Below, in pieces: positions 54,182 through 62,122 of a DNA stretch of 64,000 bases (positions within the stretch are counted from its first letter, which is position 1; the number at the start of each line of letters is the position of its first letter). Source of the DNA: Maritalea porphyrae. GTDB lineage: Bacteria; Pseudomonadota; Alphaproteobacteria; Rhizobiales; Devosiaceae. Position numbers and translations under genes: made by a program. The stretch spans positions 434,001-498,000 of the forward strand of contig NZ_JAPWGX010000001.1 in the NCBI RefSeq assembly GCF_027213965.1. Direction: 5' to 3'. The notes beneath the pieces are model-generated. The model did not search any database, was not told where the DNA came from, and saw only the letters and a program-made list of their open reading frames with translations.

Positions 54182-55024
54182 TTAAATGCGAGGGTCCACA
54201 ACCGCGAGCACAAGGTCGACCATTTTTATCAAGGTATTGATCGTTCTTATTTTTGTATTGGGGTTCTTTCGGTGGTAGTGATCTATACCCTCAAATCCGC
54301 TTTCTCCAGGTTTGCCAGCGTCAAACCTTAATTCGTCTCCATTTTTCCCATTTACGAAAGTTCTGTGACCGCGTTTGCGTGCCTCTGGATGTGAAATCTC
54401 CTTATACCCCAATCCCAAAAGATCGTCAGGATCGACCGGTAGGTTTTTCAATATTCCTTTTACAAACTTCCCACCTGGCATAATCGCAGCGGCTACGATG
54501 CCGTAATCCGCAATCGAGTTGGCATCTACAAGCCCCTTCACATCTCCTACGGGAGTTGCTAATTCCACCACATCCGCACCGCTAGCTAGATATTCCGTGC
54601 CAATGGTCCTCATTGCCTCTCCGGCGTGTCCCAGCATTTGTTTTTGAGACACGTTCCCAGATCTGGCTTGCTCCATCGCACGCGCTTCGATCGCGGCGGG
54701 CGACATGGCATTTGCAAAATTTCTAAAACAATCTCCAAATCCTTCACCTTGACAGAAATGCCCACTCGGATCACTCTTATTCACCGGATCATTCAGCGAA
54801 TATGCATAGCGGTTGGTGCCAACCGCAGGGTCAGCAGGGTTCCACCAGTCGGGTTGAATGAAGCGGGCCAGTTCTGGGTCGTAGTAACGGGCATTGAGAT
54901 AGGTTAGACCTGTTTCAACATCGTGACGTTCACCGATATAGCTTTTGGTGCGCTCTGGGGTGAAGGTTTGGGCGAGGATTTCATTGATGCCACCAAAGGG
55001 TTGGTACTTCGATCTGCGCCGCAT
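54182..55024 (-). pseudogene. RHS core C-terminal fragment with toxin tip
   Basis: A 280-residue open frame beginning inside the RHS core ([10 protein letters not shown], then [29 protein letters not shown] and [17 protein letters not shown]). It has no YD repeats or N-terminus, so it is an orphan C-terminal module. After DPSGH comes a variable tip of about 190 residues containing an Ala/Gly-rich pretoxin helix ([20 protein letters not shown]). The end holds [22 protein letters not shown] followed by [11 protein letters not shown], a His-rich pattern seen in polymorphic nuclease-type toxins. The toxin family is not assigned with certainty. An ATG exists at 55024 but I see no clear ribosome site, so expression is doubtful without recombination to a full RHS. 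Confidence 0.7.
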
Positions 55025-55060: not shown

Positions 55061-55954
55061 CTATTTCTCAACCGCGCATTGTTGCTTTACCCAGTTCGCG
55101 AAGGCTGTAATTCGTTTGTCGCCCCGCAGTTTATGTGGGCAGGCAAAATAATAGGCTTCCTCACATTTCATGCGCGCGTGTATGGGCACCACCAGGTCCC
55201 CACGCAGCACCTCCTTGCGCACCAAAAAATCAGGGATTAGGGCAAATCCAATCCCATTCACCGCAGCTTGAATGACATGGGCATAATGCTCAAACCGAGG
55301 CCCCGATTTGATGCGATTTGTGGCGAGGCCAAAGTTATCGCACCACATATTCCACAGTTTCGGGCGGGTTGTGTGGTGAACAAGAGGATAGTCCAAAATT
55401 GCATTGATATCGGCGGGACGCTGCTTTTCAATCAGACTAGGTGCACAAACGGGAATAACATGTTCAGGCATCAAGAAATCTAACCGCGCGCCCTGCCAGT
55501 CATTCATTCCAAAATGGATGGCAATATCAATATCTTCTGTGTCGAAATTGAACGGCTTTATTTTTGAAACCAGATTGAGGTCCAGTCCATGGTGGCTGGC
55601 AATAAACTCGTTCAATTTTGGCACCAACCAACGTGATCCAAAGGTTGGCGGCACCGCAACGGTGAGCAAGCCGATCGACTGATTGTGTGAAATAAACCGA
55701 GCCGTTGAGGCTTCGATTTCGCTGAGAATTTGCGACATATCTTGTCCATAACGCTCTGCTGCAGGCTCAAGAAACAGCCGTTTTCGCTCGCGTCTAAAAA
55801 GCTGAAGGCCAAGTTGTGCCTCCATAGATTGGATACGCCGGCTCACCGCGCTTTGCGTCATGTTCAACTCTTCGGCCGCCTGTGTGATGCTGCCAAGACG
55901 ATAAACTGCCTCAAAGCAAACCAACGAATTCATGGATGGTAACGTACGGCGCAT
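55061..55954 (-). CDS. LysR family transcriptional regulator (GcvA-like)
   Basis: A 297-residue LysR-type regulator. The N-terminal winged helix is MNSLVCFEAVYRLGSITQAA with TQSAVSRRIQSMEAQLG as recognition helix, and the effector domain follows (VAVPPTFGSRWLVPKL, IDIAIHFGMNDW, GIGFALIPDFLV). The YD-type hinge and LFRRERKRLFLEPA linker are typical of the GcvA/AmpR group. It diverges from the peptide importer operon across a 156-bp gap with a LysR-type palindrome, so it likely controls that operon and itself. Confidence 0.92.
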   Translation of the reverse strand: MRRTLPSMNSLVCFEAVYRLGSITQAAEELNMTQSAVSRRIQSMEAQLGLQLFRRERKRLFLEPAAERYGQDMSQILSEIEASTARFISHNQSIGLLTVAVPPTFGSRWLVPKLNEFIASHHGLDLNLVSKIKPFNFDTEDIDIAIHFGMNDWQGARLDFLMPEHVIPVCAPSLIEKQRPADINAILDYPLVHHTTRPKLWNMWCDNFGLATNRIKSGPRFEHYAHVIQAAVNGIGFALIPDFLVRKEVLRGDLVVPIHARMKCEEAYYFACPHKLRGDKRITAFANWVKQQCAVEK

Positions 55955-56036: not shown

Positions 56037-56110
56037 TCTGTAATTCACCCATACGCCAGCAAAAGGCATGTGGGATTTTTCAGCCGACAATGATCGGCAA
56101 GGGAGGAAAA

Positions 56111-57721
56111 ATGAAAAAGCAACTCTTACCATTGGCTGCCCTATTGCTCTGCTCAACATCTTTGAGCGCACTTGCGGGTGGCGAAAAAGTGCCTGACGTC
56201 AATTTTCTGACATGGCCAGCGGCCAAGTATCAACATTATTATGAAACGAGCAATTACGTCGCAGAAGGTTGGCGCGAGCTTGGACTAACGGTTAATCTGA
56301 ACCCACAACCGTTTCCCAACCCAATGCTCGGCAAATGGTTTTCAGAGCATGACTTTGATGCCGTTTTGTCTGTGCTCTCGGGCGCACCTTACCGCATGGA
56401 GCCGGATTTTTTCACTAACGCGCAGTTTAACTCTGCCAACTCCAGCCCAGGCGACTGGAACGTAGGCGAGTTCTCTGATCCAGAAGTGGATCGTTTGGGT
56501 CTAAAACAGCTCGGCTTATATGATCCAGAAGAACGCCGCGCCGTGATTTATGATTTGCAGGCAGCGTTGCACCGCGCCCAACCTGAGTTGGTGGTTGCGG
56601 CGGTAATTTCCACCACAGGCATTAATACTGAGAATGTAGAAATTCCAGGATTTGAAGCCGCACCAGATGGATTACGCTCCATTTGGAACTTGACCAAAAT
56701 GACGTCAAAAACAGGTGAAGCTGTGAAAATGGGTCAAACGATTGACCAGGCTTCATTCAATCCGCTAGCGGCCAATACGGCTGAAGATTTTATCAATCTC
56801 AGCTTAATCTATGATCGTTTGATTGAACTTGGTGCGGATGGGAAGCCCCGCAACCGCTTGGCAGAGAGCTACAATGTTGTTGACGACACAACGATTGATG
56901 TAAAACTGCGCGAGGGGCACACATTTGCCGACGGCAAGCCTGTCACCGCGGCTGACGTCAAGTTCTCATATGATTACTTCAAAGAATGGGAAGCGGCTTA
57001 CTACAAGAAATATTTGGAACGGTTGGAGAGCGTTACCATTCTTGATGATGGCACGCTCCGCTTCAAACTCACCGAGGCCTATGCGCCGTTCATCTTGCAT
57101 ACGTTGGGTCAAGTGTTCGTGTTGCCAGAACATATTTGGGGCAGTGTGATTGAAGATACAGGCATTTCCAAACCGCAAGAATATCGCAACACAGATCCTG
57201 TTGGCAGCGGGCCGTATAGTTTGAAATATTGGAAAGAGGGTCAAGAGCTCTATTTGGCCAAACGTGACGACCATTTCATGAAGCCTGCCGCCGACCTACT
57301 CTATGTGGTTTTTGGATCGGCTGAAGTTGTTGGTGCGGCACTTAAAAAGGGCGAAATTGACATTTCCTTGCAGCCCCTCGTGCCAACTGTAGTTGAAGAG
57401 TTTGCGGCTGAGCCGAACATCAAATTGTATCGCACAAATTCAAACGGCTATATGTCTGCGCGCTACAAGACAACTGGGCCTGTATTCTCGAATGAGGCCT
57501 TGCGTCAAGCTGCGGCATGGGCGGTTCCATATGATCAAATCATCGAGGAAGTTCTTGGTGGCGACGCCACGCGAAGCGCGTCTTCAATTGTTCCGATCAA
57601 TGGGTATTGGCACAGTGCAACACTTGAGTTGCCACAATACGACATCGAAAAAGCGCGAAAAATGCTTGCCGATGCTGGTTTCACCTGGGACGCAGATGGT
57701 GCGTTGCATTTCCCTGAGTAA
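56111..57721 (+). CDS. SBP_bac_5 peptide-binding protein with circularly permuted domain order
   Basis: A 536-residue periplasmic binding protein with a Sec signal peptide (residues 1-22). In the canonical family the order is N-terminal lobe, then C-terminal lobe. Here residues about 25-198 match the usual C-terminal lobe: ETSNYVAEGWRELGLTVNLN, SDPEVDRLGLKQL, then DPEERRAVIYDLQAALHRAQP. Residues about 205-536 match the usual N-terminal part: TIDQASFNPLAAN, LIYDRLIELGADGKPRNRLA, FADGKPVTAADVKFSYDYF, DPVGSGPYSLKYW, ALKKGEIDI, and finally YDIEKARKMLADAGFTWD. The protein ends exactly where a normal member would enter its C-terminal lobe. The ATG at 56111 has a GGGAGG site. It heads a dipeptide-type ABC operon. 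Confidence 0.85.
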   Translation: MKKQLLPLAALLLCSTSLSALAGGEKVPDVNFLTWPAAKYQHYYETSNYVAEGWRELGLTVNLNPQPFPNPMLGKWFSEHDFDAVLSVLSGAPYRMEPDFFTNAQFNSANSSPGDWNVGEFSDPEVDRLGLKQLGLYDPEERRAVIYDLQAALHRAQPELVVAAVISTTGINTENVEIPGFEAAPDGLRSIWNLTKMTSKTGEAVKMGQTIDQASFNPLAANTAEDFINLSLIYDRLIELGADGKPRNRLAESYNVVDDTTIDVKLREGHTFADGKPVTAADVKFSYDYFKEWEAAYYKKYLERLESVTILDDGTLRFKLTEAYAPFILHTLGQVFVLPEHIWGSVIEDTGISKPQEYRNTDPVGSGPYSLKYWKEGQELYLAKRDDHFMKPAADLLYVVFGSAEVVGAALKKGEIDISLQPLVPTVVEEFAAEPNIKLYRTNSNGYMSARYKTTGPVFSNEALRQAAAWAVPYDQIIEEVLGGDATRSASSIVPINGYWHSATLELPQYDIEKARKMLADAGFTWDADGALHFPE

Positions 57722-57746: not shown

Positions 57747-58751
57747 ATGATGCTTCAAGTAAAAAACCTCGCCAAGCGCTATGTGCTTGGCGAGAGCCTT
57801 TCGACGCTCTTGGGCCTGACCCAAGCTCAATCAATTCGCGCCGTAGACGGGATAAATCTGTCTGTCCAGCCCGGCGAAGTGTTGGGCCTTGTCGGTGAAA
57901 GTGGCTGCGGAAAATCAACCCTTGCCCGCTTGTTGGTTGGTCTGGAAGAGCCAAGCGAAGGCGAAATCTCGTTCGGTGGCGACGACATGGCACAATTGCG
58001 CCAAGACGATCGCCGCGCATTCCACCGGCAAGTGCAAATGGTGTTTCAAGACCCCTATGGGTCATTGAATCCACAACACACCGTTGAAGAGATTGTCAGC
58101 CGCCCGTTGATTTATCAAAAGGCGGGGCTGGATAAAAAAGGTCTACGCGAGCGCGCAATTGAAGCGTTGAGCGAGGCAGAACTGCTGCCGCCAGAACGCT
58201 ATCTGGCGAAGTTCCCGCATGAGTTGAGCGGCGGGCAACGTCAACGTGTGTGCATTGCGCGTGCGCTTGTGCTCAAGCCAGATTTAATTGTCGCTGACGA
58301 GCCGATTTCCATGCTCGATGTCTCGATCAAGTGGGGCATAGTGCGTTTGCTTAAACGGCTGGTCCAAAAGCGAAAAATCGGCTTGATATATATTACGCAT
58401 GATCTCTCGTCTGTACCTGCTGTTTGTGACAAATTGGCGATTATGTATTTAGGGCGGATTGTTGAAAGCGGTCCGTGTCGTGAGGTTTTTGCAAACCCCG
58501 AGCATCCCTACACTCAGGCCCTATTGGCCGCCACACCAAATCCCAACCCAGATGTTGTGCGCAAGCGGCCAAATATTTCTGGCGCGATACCAAGCGCAGC
58601 CGCCATCCCCGCGGGTTGCCGTTTTCACCCTCGTTGCCCGGTGGCGAAACCGGTTTGCGCTACAGATTTTCCCGAAGGTCTTTGCAGGGGCTACCACCGT
58701 GCTGAGTGCCACTTCGCATTCGAAAATGCCCAAACGCTGGAGGCCGGTTGA
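57747..58751 (+). CDS. peptide ABC ATP-binding protein (DppF/OppF-like)
   Basis: A 334-residue ATPase with Walker A GESGCGKSTLARLL, Q-loop FQDPYGSLNPQHTVEE, signature LSGGQRQRVCIARAL, Walker B LIVADEPISMLD and the C-terminal oligopeptide/dipeptide extension (CRFHPRCPVAKPVCA), whose cysteines may bind a cluster. It is 26 bp after the binding-protein stop and overlaps the permease start (TGATG). Confidence 0.92.
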   Translation: MMLQVKNLAKRYVLGESLSTLLGLTQAQSIRAVDGINLSVQPGEVLGLVGESGCGKSTLARLLVGLEEPSEGEISFGGDDMAQLRQDDRRAFHRQVQMVFQDPYGSLNPQHTVEEIVSRPLIYQKAGLDKKGLRERAIEALSEAELLPPERYLAKFPHELSGGQRQRVCIARALVLKPDLIVADEPISMLDVSIKWGIVRLLKRLVQKRKIGLIYITHDLSSVPAVCDKLAIMYLGRIVESGPCREVFANPEHPYTQALLAATPNPNPDVVRKRPNISGAIPSAAAIPAGCRFHPRCPVAKPVCATDFPEGLCRGYHRAECHFAFENAQTLEAG

Positions 58752-59722
58752 TGCGACAGTTTTTGATTAAGCGCATTTGGCATGCGCTTCTAACCCTTTT
58801 TGTAATGGTCAGCGTGATGTTTTTCATGTTCCGCATGCTGCCCGGTGATCCAACCGCCACGGTGATCAGCCCCGCACTTTACCCAAAGGCGCAAGAAGCA
58901 CTAAAAGCACAGTTCGGGCTCGATCGACCTTTGCACGAACAATATTTCATTTACCTGCGCAATTTGCTGGTTTTTGACTTTGGCATTTCCTTCCACACCT
59001 TGCGCCCTGTCGCAGGGGAAATTGGCAACCGACTAATCAATACGCTCGTCTTGATCTTGCCATCTATGGTTGTTGCTTACGCAATTGGTGCATTTGCTGG
59101 TGCCATGGTTGCATGGAAACGTGGCAGCAAAGTTGAAGGCTTTTTGGTGCTGCTTGCAACGGCATTACAATCTACGCCTGTGTTTTGGTTGGGTATGTTG
59201 GCGATCCTGTTTTTCTCCATCCGCCTTGATATGTTCCCCGTGGGGCACATTGTTTCACCGGGAAAATTCCCTGAAGCAAACCTGCAAATGTATCTGTCGC
59301 TCGATTTTCTGCACCACTTGGCCCTGCCGTTCATGGTCAATGTGGCCTACCAGTTTTGCTTTCCGTTTTTGCTCATGCGCTCAACGATGTTGTCAACAAT
59401 TGGCGAGGATTACATCGAGTTGGCCCGCATGAAAGGCGTGCCCGAAAATCGCATTCTTTACCATCACGCCATGCGCAATTCTATGCTGCCATTGGCCACA
59501 ACTTTGCCAATGATATTGGGCTGGGCAGTTGCTGGATCGGTGGTGATTGAGACTGTTTTTTCATGGCCCGGCCTCGGCCTCTTGATGGTCGAAGCTGTGG
59601 GGAGGTCGGACTACCCCGTGGTGCAGGCCGCGTTCCTTTTAATCGCTGTTCTAACAGTTGGCGGCACATTGTTGGCCGACCTCATGTACGGGATTTTAGA
59701 CCCCCGTATCACCTATAAGTAG
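58751..59722 (+). CDS. peptide ABC permease (DppB-like)
   Basis: A 323-residue inner-membrane permease of the DppB type with six helices. The N-terminal helix is ALLTLFVMVSVMFFMFRMLPGDPT and the ATPase-contact loop is DYIELARMKGVPENRILYHHAMRNSMLP. The C-terminus LADLMYGILDPRITY is conserved. The ATG shares a base with the preceding TGA, so translation is coupled; a longer frame into the ATPase gene is rejected. Confidence 0.93.
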   Translation: MRQFLIKRIWHALLTLFVMVSVMFFMFRMLPGDPTATVISPALYPKAQEALKAQFGLDRPLHEQYFIYLRNLLVFDFGISFHTLRPVAGEIGNRLINTLVLILPSMVVAYAIGAFAGAMVAWKRGSKVEGFLVLLATALQSTPVFWLGMLAILFFSIRLDMFPVGHIVSPGKFPEANLQMYLSLDFLHHLALPFMVNVAYQFCFPFLLMRSTMLSTIGEDYIELARMKGVPENRILYHHAMRNSMLPLATTLPMILGWAVAGSVVIETVFSWPGLGLLMVEAVGRSDYPVVQAAFLLIAVLTVGGTLLADLMYGILDPRITYK

Positions 59723-59731
59723 GAGAGCTAG

Positions 59732-60598
59732 ATGTTCCGCACTATATCGCGTTTCCTTGCCATTATTTGGAGTTCTCCCGCTGGGCGCATCAGCTTATCC
59801 ATCTTCTGTCTTTGCGTGGCCATTGCGACCTTGGGGCCATTGGTTGCCCCTTATGGGCCGACCGAACGCATCTATGACGAAGCGGGTAAGCTGGTGCGTC
59901 TTTCCCCGCCCACGTGGAAGCACTGGTTGGGTACAACCTTGCTTGGCCGCGATGTCATGAGCCAAATGCTTTGGGGCGCACGCCCCGCGCTTACCATTGG
60001 CGTTTTGACCGCTCTGGGCACCGTGCTGATTGGGGTGAATGTTGGGCTATTGGCGGGCTACCTTGGTGGCCGCGTGGACAGCATACTCATGCGCATAACT
60101 GACATTTTCTTAGGGCTGCCATTCCTGCCCTTTATCATCGTTTTGCTGTCCTTAACGGGGCAAAACATTTGGACCATCATTTTCGCGATGATGATTGTGA
60201 TGTGGCGCTCAACGGCACGGATTGTGCGGGCGGAAGTGCTCTCCTTACGCGAACGCCAATTCATTGCGGCGGCGCGCACCACCGGTGCGAGTGATTTTGA
60301 CATTATTTACAAAGAAATCGCCCCCAACATCATGCCGTTTGCGCTTGTTGGCGTCACATTTGCACTGGCTTGGGCAATCATTACTGAGGCCAGCATTGGG
60401 TTCTTGGGCTTTGGTGATCCAAATGTCGTGAGTTGGGGATCGATCATCTACGACGCCTACGCATCGCAAATGATGTATCGCGCACCCTGGTGGGTGGTGC
60501 CGCCCGGCATTGCCATCATGGTGCTTGTGACCTCGGTTTATTTCATTGGCCGCGCATATGAAGAAGTTGTCAATCCACGCATAAAGCAGGCGGGTTAA
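59732..60598 (+). CDS. peptide ABC permease (DppC-like)
   Basis: A 288-residue permease with the DppC start (SIFCLCVAIATLGPLVAPYGPT), the LGTTLLGRDVMSQMLWGAR motif, and the coupling loop RERQFIAAARTTGASDFDIIYKEIAPNIMP (two segments of one loop). The C-terminal RAYEEVVNPRIKQAG is standard. It begins 9 bp after the DppB-like stop and forms the heterodimeric channel with it. Confidence 0.93.
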   Translation: MFRTISRFLAIIWSSPAGRISLSIFCLCVAIATLGPLVAPYGPTERIYDEAGKLVRLSPPTWKHWLGTTLLGRDVMSQMLWGARPALTIGVLTALGTVLIGVNVGLLAGYLGGRVDSILMRITDIFLGLPFLPFIIVLLSLTGQNIWTIIFAMMIVMWRSTARIVRAEVLSLRERQFIAAARTTGASDFDIIYKEIAPNIMPFALVGVTFALAWAIITEASIGFLGFGDPNVVSWGSIIYDAYASQMMYRAPWWVVPPGIAIMVLVTSVYFIGRAYEEVVNPRIKQAG

Positions 60599-60600
60599 TC

Positions 60601-61650
60601 ATGGACAAAACACATCAGTTCACCCCGGCGCTTTCCATCAAAGACCTGGACGTAGATTACAACGCTGGCGAACATCCTGTTGCCGCTTTGCGAGAGATTA
60701 ATTTGGATCTTTTCAAAGGTGATCGAATTGGGTTGGTTGGAGAAAGTGGCTGTGGAAAATCGACTTTGCTCAAAGCCATCATGGGGGTGCTGCCCAAAAA
60801 TGCGCGGACCCCAAATGGCCAAATATTATTGGATAAAACTGACCTATTGACCACTGACGGTGAAACGCGCCGAAAAGCACGATGGGCGCGTATCTCAATG
60901 ATTACGCAGAGCGCGCTTAATGCTCTCAATCCGGTCCACAAGATCGGCGCGCAGATTGAAGAGGCGATCCTATCACACAAAGACATTCCCAAAGAAAAGG
61001 CTCGCGAACGCGCGAAAGAATTGTTCGATTTGGTCGGCGTGTCATCGGAACGATTGGATGACTATCCGCACCAGTTTTCGGGCGGCATGCGTCAACGTGC
61101 TGTCATTGCCATGGCGCTGGCACTTGAACCTGAAATCGTGCTGGCGGACGAACCAACAACTGCTCTGGATGTGATCGTCCAAGACCAAATTTTTGACCGC
61201 CTTTACAGCCTACAAGCTGAACAAGGCTTTTCAATTGTTTTGGTCACGCACGACTTGGCGTTGGTCGTTGAAAGCTGCGAGCGCATTGTGGTGATGTATG
61301 CAGGCATGATTGTTGAGACCGGGAATACAAAGTCCATCACACGCACCCCATTGCATCCCTATACCGCTGGCTTGAGATATGCGATCCCCGACCTGACGCT
61401 TGATCACGACCCCATATCCATCCCCGGTGCGCCGCCTGACCTGTCACAACCATTTCAGGGCTGTCGTTTTGCCCCCCGATGTCCAATGGCGATTGATGCG
61501 TGTTGGCAAGACATGCCTTCCCTTGAACCTGTTGGCCAAGCAGAAGGCGAGCGCTTGGTGCGCTGTCATCGGGCAAACGAGATGAACGATTTTCGCGACA
61601 GGTTAAGCCAACAAGACTTTTGGTTCAGCGAAACAAAGACAAACGAATAA
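60601..61650 (+). CDS. peptide ABC ATP-binding protein (DppD/OppD-like)
   Basis: A 349-residue ATPase with Walker A GESGCGKSTLLKAI, Q-loop ITQSALNALNPVHKIG, signature FSGGMRQRAVIAMAL, Walker B IVLADEPTTALD, and the C-terminal CRFAPRCPMAIDAC extension. It starts 2 bp after the DppC-like stop. Together with the DppF-like subunit it gives the two non-identical ATPases of the importer. Confidence 0.93.
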   Translation: MDKTHQFTPALSIKDLDVDYNAGEHPVAALREINLDLFKGDRIGLVGESGCGKSTLLKAIMGVLPKNARTPNGQILLDKTDLLTTDGETRRKARWARISMITQSALNALNPVHKIGAQIEEAILSHKDIPKEKARERAKELFDLVGVSSERLDDYPHQFSGGMRQRAVIAMALALEPEIVLADEPTTALDVIVQDQIFDRLYSLQAEQGFSIVLVTHDLALVVESCERIVVMYAGMIVETGNTKSITRTPLHPYTAGLRYAIPDLTLDHDPISIPGAPPDLSQPFQGCRFAPRCPMAIDACWQDMPSLEPVGQAEGERLVRCHRANEMNDFRDRLSQQDFWFSETKTNE

Positions 61651-61672: not shown

Positions 61673-62122
61673 ATGCATTATTTTGCTTATGGCACCCTTT
61701 TGGTTGAAGAGAGCATGCGCGGCGTGTGCCCAAGCGCAAAGAACGTGGGCTACATGCGGCTAGACGGCTATGAAATGGCGTTTGGAAATTGCTCTAGGGA
61801 AGGCCTTGCAGGTTGCACACTCGTCGCCAAAGAAGGCGCGGTTACCTATGGCATTCAATATGAATTGACCGACGAAGATATGGCCAAAATGGACGATGCA
61901 GCCGAGGTCTCGACCAAACAATGGGTACATACCCCAATAACGTTGATAGATGCATCTGGCAACAAAGTGCCCTCGTCCACATACATTATTCCAGGTGAAC
62001 TGAATGAGTGGGCACCCACAGAGAAATACGTCTCGCCAATCCTAAAAGGGTTGGAAACAGCTGACTTTCCAATCGACTATAAGACATTTATGAACGCCAT
62101 GATCGACAGAGTCGTTTGCTGA
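61673..62122 (+). CDS. gamma-glutamylcyclotransferase-like protein
   Basis: A 149-residue cytoplasmic protein of the GGCT/AIG2 fold. The substrate-binding loop is YFAYGTLL at the N-terminus, followed by LDGYEMAFGNCSREGLAGCTLV and a GIQYELTDEDMAKMDDA segment that carries the acidic position of the active site. The catalytic Glu is hard to place: an Asp-Asp-Ala-Ala-Glu stretch occupies the site. It lies 22 bp after the last ABC gene with a CGGAGAG ribosome site, so it is probably the final gene of the operon. This suggests that the importer supplies a gamma-glutamyl compound. Confidence 0.78.
   Translation: MHYFAYGTLLVEESMRGVCPSAKNVGYMRLDGYEMAFGNCSREGLAGCTLVAKEGAVTYGIQYELTDEDMAKMDDAAEVSTKQWVHTPITLIDASGNKVPSSTYIIPGELNEWAPTEKYVSPILKGLETADFPIDYKTFMNAMIDRVVC

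Follow-up and report, generated by a model that had tools for sequence, protein, structure and literature searches.

The window, as we call the whole stretch of 64,000 nucleotides from Maritalea porphyrae that was analysed, carries on its forward strand an open reading frame at 56111–57721 that runs unbroken from an ATG at 56111 to a stop codon at 57721 and encodes 536 amino acids. On the evidence of the frame and of Pfam and profile tests of segment order, the gene encodes a circularly permuted SBP_bac_5 substrate-binding protein (SBP). A ribosome-binding-like GGGAGG, matched to consensus by eye, lies 5' of the ATG at 56101–56106 on the same strand, and residues ~1–23 (56111–56179) form a probable Sec signal peptide, likewise recognized by eye. 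The signal peptide is followed by the relocated C-terminal piece (residues 26–196, 56186–56698), which aligns with DppA 383–523 and, by its match to DppA, corresponds to the rear of lobe 2 and to the chain's last crossing back into lobe 1. A short linker (residues ~197–204, 56699–56722), with limits set by eye on alignment A2, connects the old C- and N-termini. The canonical N-terminal piece (residues 205–536, 56723–57718) aligns with DppA 19–367, covers lobe 1 together with the opening part of lobe 2, and its last residue is the new C-terminus. As read by eye in A2, a full-length alignment of 16 members, the linker is short throughout, and the new C-terminus comes directly after a stretch resembling AG(Y/F)...G.L..P, beyond which 7 of the 16 members extend. 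Between the window protein and five orthologues, residues 1–24 are 17–62% identical and the C- and N-parts 55–78%.

The genes that follow on the forward strand encode the other parts of an importer: a DppF/OppF-like ATPase (57747–58751), a DppB-like permease (58751–59722), a DppC-like permease (59732–60598), and a DppD/OppD-like ATPase (60601–61650). All four are conserved neighbours whose family matches are strong and lie under the curated equivalog cut-offs. The last conserved gene of the cluster (61673–62122, forward) encodes a gamma-glutamylcyclotransferase-like protein of the GGACT/AIG2 type (PF06094, 31.1 bits against a cut-off of 22.8), for which no NCBIfam match was obtained at 1e-5. 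A divergent LysR-type regulator is encoded at 55061–55954 on the reverse strand; its closest model is GcvA (274 bits against a cut-off of 288). At 54182–55024 on the reverse strand, a 280-residue open reading frame shows by eye, near its start, a stretch that we take to be RHS-repeat-core-like; it may form the terminal portion of a larger gene of RHS type, and no Pfam match was obtained for it at E<=0.01.

Relatives of the SBP were collected by full-length match and comprise seven loci from the species-genome collection and twelve plasmid loci. The seven species-genome loci encode orthologues with 51–86% identity in the same segment order. Six of them align from query residue 1, 2 or 6 to residue 535 or 536, and the seventh aligns from residue 41, where its contig starts. 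The four transporter genes and a GGACT relative (38–76% identity) adjoin the SBP gene in 8/8 close loci (L023–L030), with the gene block inverted in one of them, from Microvirga. A LysR relative is present in six of the eight; it is absent in L029, and the contig of L023 begins inside the SBP gene. The preliminary description, made from the sequence of the window, had proposed that the protein is circularly permuted and that its intact gene heads a complete permease/ATPase operon, and had suggested a search for orthologues of the same order; the two permeases and two ATPases at 57747–61650 bear out the operon, and the seven orthologues beside the same gene types have that order.

The evidence for the swapped order comes from searches with each piece separately. 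Residues 246–530 match positions 2–284 of the Pfam model PF00496 (E 6e-60), and the N-terminal piece searched alone (residues 25–198) matches positions 290–366 (E 0.0055, 16.3 bits, cut-off 32.4). The two ranges are complementary, which indicates that the order is swapped and that little of the family model is missing. PF00496 is the sole Pfam family of the window protein in a scan up to E 1. With NCBIfam, the second piece agrees with Pfam and the first gives a weak match to GsiB positions 416–501 (E 0.14). A phmmer search of solved structures gave strong matches of the second piece to Lmo0135, AppA and NikZ, and weak matches of the first piece to NikZ and GbpA in their C-terminal part (E 0.003). 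Profiles make the first piece strong. Alignment A3, which contains the N-terminal piece and the junction of 16 members, matched 67 distinct PDB sequences at E<=0.001, and the best among the 60 of these 67 that were listed are dipeptide-binding proteins, matched in their C-terminal part. Against the same chain of Escherichia coli DppA (8z1y_F), A3 aligns with residues 383–523 (E 1.3e-20) and A2 with residues 19–367 (E 1.7e-75). PF00496 is matched by every one of the 16 A2 members at E<=0.01 and by every one of the 16 A3 pieces at E<=0.1. The window protein is thus homologous across the SBP_bac_5 family model, and the canonical order of the model along the chain is absent from it.

Segment order was also classed in 136 open reading frames of at least 350 residues with a strong N-part match, taken from 135 loci. 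The N-part came first in 83 (76 distinct) and the C-part first in 46 (37 distinct), proportions that are not natural frequencies because the loci were chosen by similarity to the permuted protein. Seven of the 136 (5 distinct) gave no C-part match, and the C-part E value exceeded 1e-3 in 4 of the 83 N-first frames. Profiles built only from canonical proteins (72 of them) placed the C-part before the N-part in all 37 distinct frames that had been classed permuted beforehand by permuted-family profiles, with C-part E values from 6.5e-8 to 2.7e-26; this test is partly non-independent, since it was the permuted C-part profile that set the limits of the canonical C-parts. That permuted C-part profile matched none of 2000 shuffled canonical proteins. 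Within the genome of the window, 14 genes match PF00496 and the one at 56111–57721 is the only permuted one. Its 13 paralogues span the model from position 1–4 to position 346–367, and the match of the permuted gene ends at 288, at its stop codon. With both strands examined, the N-part precedes the C-part in 11 of the 13 paralogues and a C-part match is absent in the other two; all 12 other matches to the window protein in its genome start at query residue 200 or later. The proposed circular permutation is confirmed by the Pfam model, by the A2 and A3 alignments with DppA and by the canonical-only profiles, the first piece aligning where the C-terminal positions of the family model lie.

The position of the break differs from that first proposed. 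Together the two segments cover DppA from 19 to 523 except for 15 residues (368–382), and the break falls among these; on OppA (1b05) it falls within 358–374. In MppA the hinge crossings are at 286–287 and 507–508 (PMC6022919), and comparison with these positions places the break well inside lobe 2 and excludes the hinge. Lobe 2 is therefore, by alignment, split between both ends of the permuted chain. The preliminary description had put the break at the hinge and had the second part stop where the C-terminal lobe begins; both statements have to be given up, as the second part includes the first part of lobe 2. In canonical structures of oligopeptide-binding proteins the old termini lie close together in domain I, as stated in PMC10924461.

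The proposed explanation is a permuted cluster C SBP acting for the ABC importer whose genes follow, and we consider it very probable. The old C-terminus would be joined to the old N-terminus by the short linker in lobe 1, where the two are normally adjacent. The new opening of the chain would lie in lobe 2, directly past the stretch ending in AGFTWDADG and probably within a loop at the surface, so that both new termini would lie on lobe 2. Once mature, the protein would adopt the two-lobed flytrap fold usual for such proteins, capture its ligand in the periplasm and pass it to the DppBC-like permease pair, with the two ATPases supplying the power. An AlphaFold2 model made from eight sequences only gave middling confidence: the pLDDT was 66.1 for the precursor, and the mature protein reached 72.8 with a pTM of 0.68. 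Foldseek, whose comparison follows the order of the chain, matched this middling-confidence model to cluster C proteins with probability 1.00 over 339–405 columns and a TM by query of 0.37–0.49 in the 50 matches listed. A partial match in chain order is expected if the remainder is out of order, and the predicted model fits a permuted cluster C fold, short of proof.

The permuted protein probably still serves as an ordinary transporter subunit. An alternative, which we regard as unlikely, is that it works by domain swapping, or by altered tethering or docking to the permease, instead of ordinary monomeric binding. The new termini would lie on lobe 2, and several haloarchaeal members show by eye what are presumably lipobox-like or twin-arginine-like signals, which would put the tether on lobe 2 and not on lobe 1. 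A tethering advantage has been raised by the authors of the work on the permuted protein TpMglB-2 (PMC4990184). Against this, the operon of the window protein is of the ordinary importer type, and the protein, though permuted, carries no lipobox evident by eye, so that the TpMglB-2 tethering idea is not generally transferable.

Conservation of the gene bears on whether the protein is functional at all. Between Maritalea mobilis (L024) and Maritalea myrionectae (L030), the C-part has a dN/dS of 0.058 and the N-part one of 0.074, and the junction shows zero amino-acid replacements at a dS of 0.30. These selection figures come from one pair, as synonymous change was saturated in both parts of the six further pairs that were compared. 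A functionless chance fusion or decaying remnant, in which a C-terminal fragment of one SBP gene became attached to an N-terminal one from a second, could draw on the neighbouring canonical SBP genes that do exist, with C-part matches ~1.6–3.9 kb apart on one contig (e.g., in G289 and G347), and on the relative L034, which appears frameshifted. It is very improbable in view of the 37 distinct frames that agree in order and, approximately, in breakpoint, the frames that are intact in all except L034 and the contig-cut L023, the conserved gene cluster, and the conserved junction with dN/dS below 0.1 in both pieces of the single unsaturated pair. Purifying selection, the conserved operon and the orthologues likewise favour the functional reordering first suggested over decay, the function itself being read from sequence, and the unbroken frame agrees with an intact gene under selection. 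Still less credible is an SBP of standard order whose N-terminal domain is unrelated and whose C-terminal lobe is truncated: the single-sequence Pfam match of the N-terminal piece, at E 0.0055 and under the curated cut-off, would leave room for it, but the E of 1.3e-20 with which the profile matches DppA in its C-terminal part, the recovery of the C-part by canonical-only profiles in 37/37 and the complementary model positions 290–366 and 2–284 speak against it. A sequencing or assembly artefact is a negligible prospect, since nothing was found in its favour, though several relatives are metagenome-assembled, and independent records agree, including the isolates Maritalea mobilis and Microvirga pudoricolor and the complete M. 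myrionectae plasmid.

The permuted cluster C protein preferred here has relatives well beyond the genus. All twelve plasmid loci examined (12 of the 30 matches listed) encode permuted proteins, six of them haloarchaeal, with ~24–77% identity to the window protein, and relatives of both permeases and both ATPases are present in 12/12. The distant permuted relatives, at ~24–33% identity, occur on alphaproteobacterial and haloarchaeal plasmids, in importer operons in 11/11 examined, and no GGACT relative was found in these 11 distant plasmid loci (L031–L041). Besides the seven orthologue loci, bacterial carriers whose permuted order was tested are Nitratireductor (two copies, L031 and L141), Roseomonas, Neorhizobium, Microvirga ossetica, Ketogulonicigenium and Salipiger. 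The haloarchaeal carriers so tested are Halalkalicoccus, Haladaptatus (two species), Natrinema, Natrialba, Halobaculum, Halarchaeum and Haloarcula. The permuted proteins of Haloarcula marina (L139) and Salipiger (L140) are still more distant and stand outside the trees described below, which implies that the permuted family is deeper than the trees show. In Neorhizobium galegae VafX2 (L034, CP090555.1, 568298–583852) the permuted SBP gene is apparently frameshifted and is annotated as two genes.

Genome counts were made with A3 matches that extend across the junction (to position 213–216). Such matches occur in at least 2 of 397 Pseudomonadota genomes among the matches listed (threshold 1e-10), at least 12 of 386 class-level genomes (threshold 1e-28) and at least 8 of 297 order-level genomes (threshold 1e-28), with the genome of the window as one in each count. 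These are lower bounds, because at most 7, 7 and 10 candidates were scored per genome and distant members such as L140 would miss the thresholds. A2 is unfit for counting in the 397 Pseudomonadota genomes, where the canonical N-part dominates and scoring covers only 3 candidates per genome, and A3 was used instead. A thirteenth class-level match (G681) covers only 4–163 and is canonical by the order test. In tblastn searches of plasmid records, 48 of 3060 and 52 of 3475 matching records covered at least 80% of the query, counts that mix permuted and canonical proteins: four of the seven records fetched from the 3475-record search were permuted and three canonical. The three canonical ones, from Meiothermus, Deinococcus and Streptomyces, gave two-piece tblastn matches and are canonical by the order test, as is the one locus from an IMG/VR scan. 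Phage records searched with the N-terminal piece gave zero matches. Overall, the permuted SBP_bac_5 proteins are, as judged from their sequences, a little-noticed widespread family common to alphaproteobacteria and haloarchaea. Permuted proteins in the annotated records examined are labelled merely "ABC transporter substrate-binding protein". This points to a blind spot in annotation, in which homology models built in chain order and predictions of ligand sites could be wrong.

Trees were built from the 136 classed frames, reduced to 109 distinct rows by leaving out duplicates, frames without a C-part match and the four with a C-part E value above 1e-3. For the joint tree, 33 near-duplicate or gappy rows were removed by hand to give 76 rows, and 75 remained after removal of L003, a row with a long branch. 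In the N-part tree, 36 of the 37 permuted rows fall into one group (SH-aLRT 97), and the remaining one, L038, stands beside the long-branch canonical L003. The permuted label requires 4 changes in the C-part tree and 2 in both the N-part tree and the 76-row joint tree. With L003 removed, the permuted rows form one side of a branch (SH-aLRT 96); with it included, a one-clade tree scored 10.5 log units above the free-search result (p-AU 0.7). A single origin of the permuted form is the simplest and most likely reading and is compatible with these trees, which are unrooted quick searches that exclude L139–L142 and whose canonical rows are almost only from Pseudomonadota. The canonical order is far commoner and may be taken as ancestral, so that the arrangement would most likely have arisen once from a canonical protein and then spread between lineages. 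The usual route to circular permutation is gene duplication followed by loss of the outer parts. A tandem-duplication origin, as the preliminary description had suggested, is plausible. No open reading frame at the examined loci had C-part matches above 10 bits on both sides of an N-part, the C-N-C arrangement that was sought. Several canonical-type SBP C-part matches lie close together on one contig in G289, G313, G347, G256 and G185, and such arrays of canonical-type genes are of the sort from which a permutation could arise.

Within the genus, matches were found in 2 of 5 other same-genus genomes (G004 and G005). In M. myrionectae (L030, NZ_CP021331.1, 139053–156591) the cluster from the LysR gene through the transporter genes to the GGACT gene lies on a plasmid typed as mobilizable. 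The mobilizable plasmid together with the 2/5 distribution suggests that the permuted SBP cluster has been transferred.

The substrate can be approached through the binding site and the neighbouring genes. In DppA, R383 and D436 hold the dipeptide, according to PMC12136057. Counted along the alignment and the model map, the window protein has Ala37 and Tyr94 at the aligned positions, the equivalence of Ala37 being weak as R383 is the first aligned residue. Among 16 family members, Arg occurs at the first position in 1 and Asp or Glu at the second in 5. With Ala37 and Tyr94 in place of R383 and D436, plain dipeptide binding in the manner of DppA is unlikely for the window protein. Near other permuted branches stand genes for hydantoinase/oxoprolinase, M20, M28 and M81 peptidases, D-aminoacylase, dipeptide epimerase, creatininase and racemase. 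The gene neighbourhood, with the GGACT-like partner and these genes, points to modified amino-acid or gamma-glutamyl substrates, and the ligand of the window protein may be an amino-acid derivative of the gamma-glutamyl or a related type.

A broader reading, which we put forward tentatively and hold at somewhat less than an even chance, is that the permuted proteins are an old subclass of cluster C ("cluster Cc"). It would have had one origin, by joined termini and a reopened lobe 2, would be kept by selection, and would have travelled, often by plasmid, among alphaproteobacteria, haloarchaea and a Desulfobacteraceae relative. Termini on lobe 2 would alter export, tethering or docking, and the group of the window protein would import gamma-glutamyl or related modified amino acids and not plain dipeptides. 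The finding that the GGACT partner was not met with in the distant loci lowers the odds of this reading. Canonical and permuted forms occur in one genome, dozens of permuted relatives are already sequenced, and they share about one breakpoint. Such natural pairs make the effects of chain order on flytrap folding, export, tethering and docking, a long-standing question, directly testable.

The preliminary description knew of no described case in this family. Among the matches listed from the open-licence PMC literature, a body that leaves subscription papers and bioRxiv preprints as such outside, no permuted cluster C binding protein was found. Within that literature the statement stands for cluster C; it has to be qualified by the broad family that exists and by a precedent in cluster B, Tp0684/TpMglB-2 of Treponema pallidum, a naturally permuted ABC-importer binding protein for which the authors propose the term "Type Ic/Cluster Bc" (PMC4990184). 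Compared with the canonical cluster C SBPs DppA, AppA and NikZ (PF00496), the window protein is homologous in both pieces, of similar length and accompanied by the same permease and ATPase types. It differs from DppA in its permuted chain, broken between DppA 368 and 382, and in having no aligned Arg and Asp at R383 and D436. YejA, as described in PMC10924461, is likewise a cluster C protein that departs from the others at its N-terminus, and its lobe 2 tolerates an extra loop; it has an unusual N-terminal extension, yet keeps the canonical chain topology. TpMglB-2 and the window protein alike are importer binding proteins with a natural circular permutation, here recognized by sequence, and occur in a set of related organisms. 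According to PMC4990184, TpMglB-2 is a glucose-binding cluster B protein whose permutation moves strands of the N-terminal lobe, whereas the window protein matches only PF00496 in the Pfam scan, which gave no homology to type I/cluster B, and is a cluster C protein opened in lobe 2.
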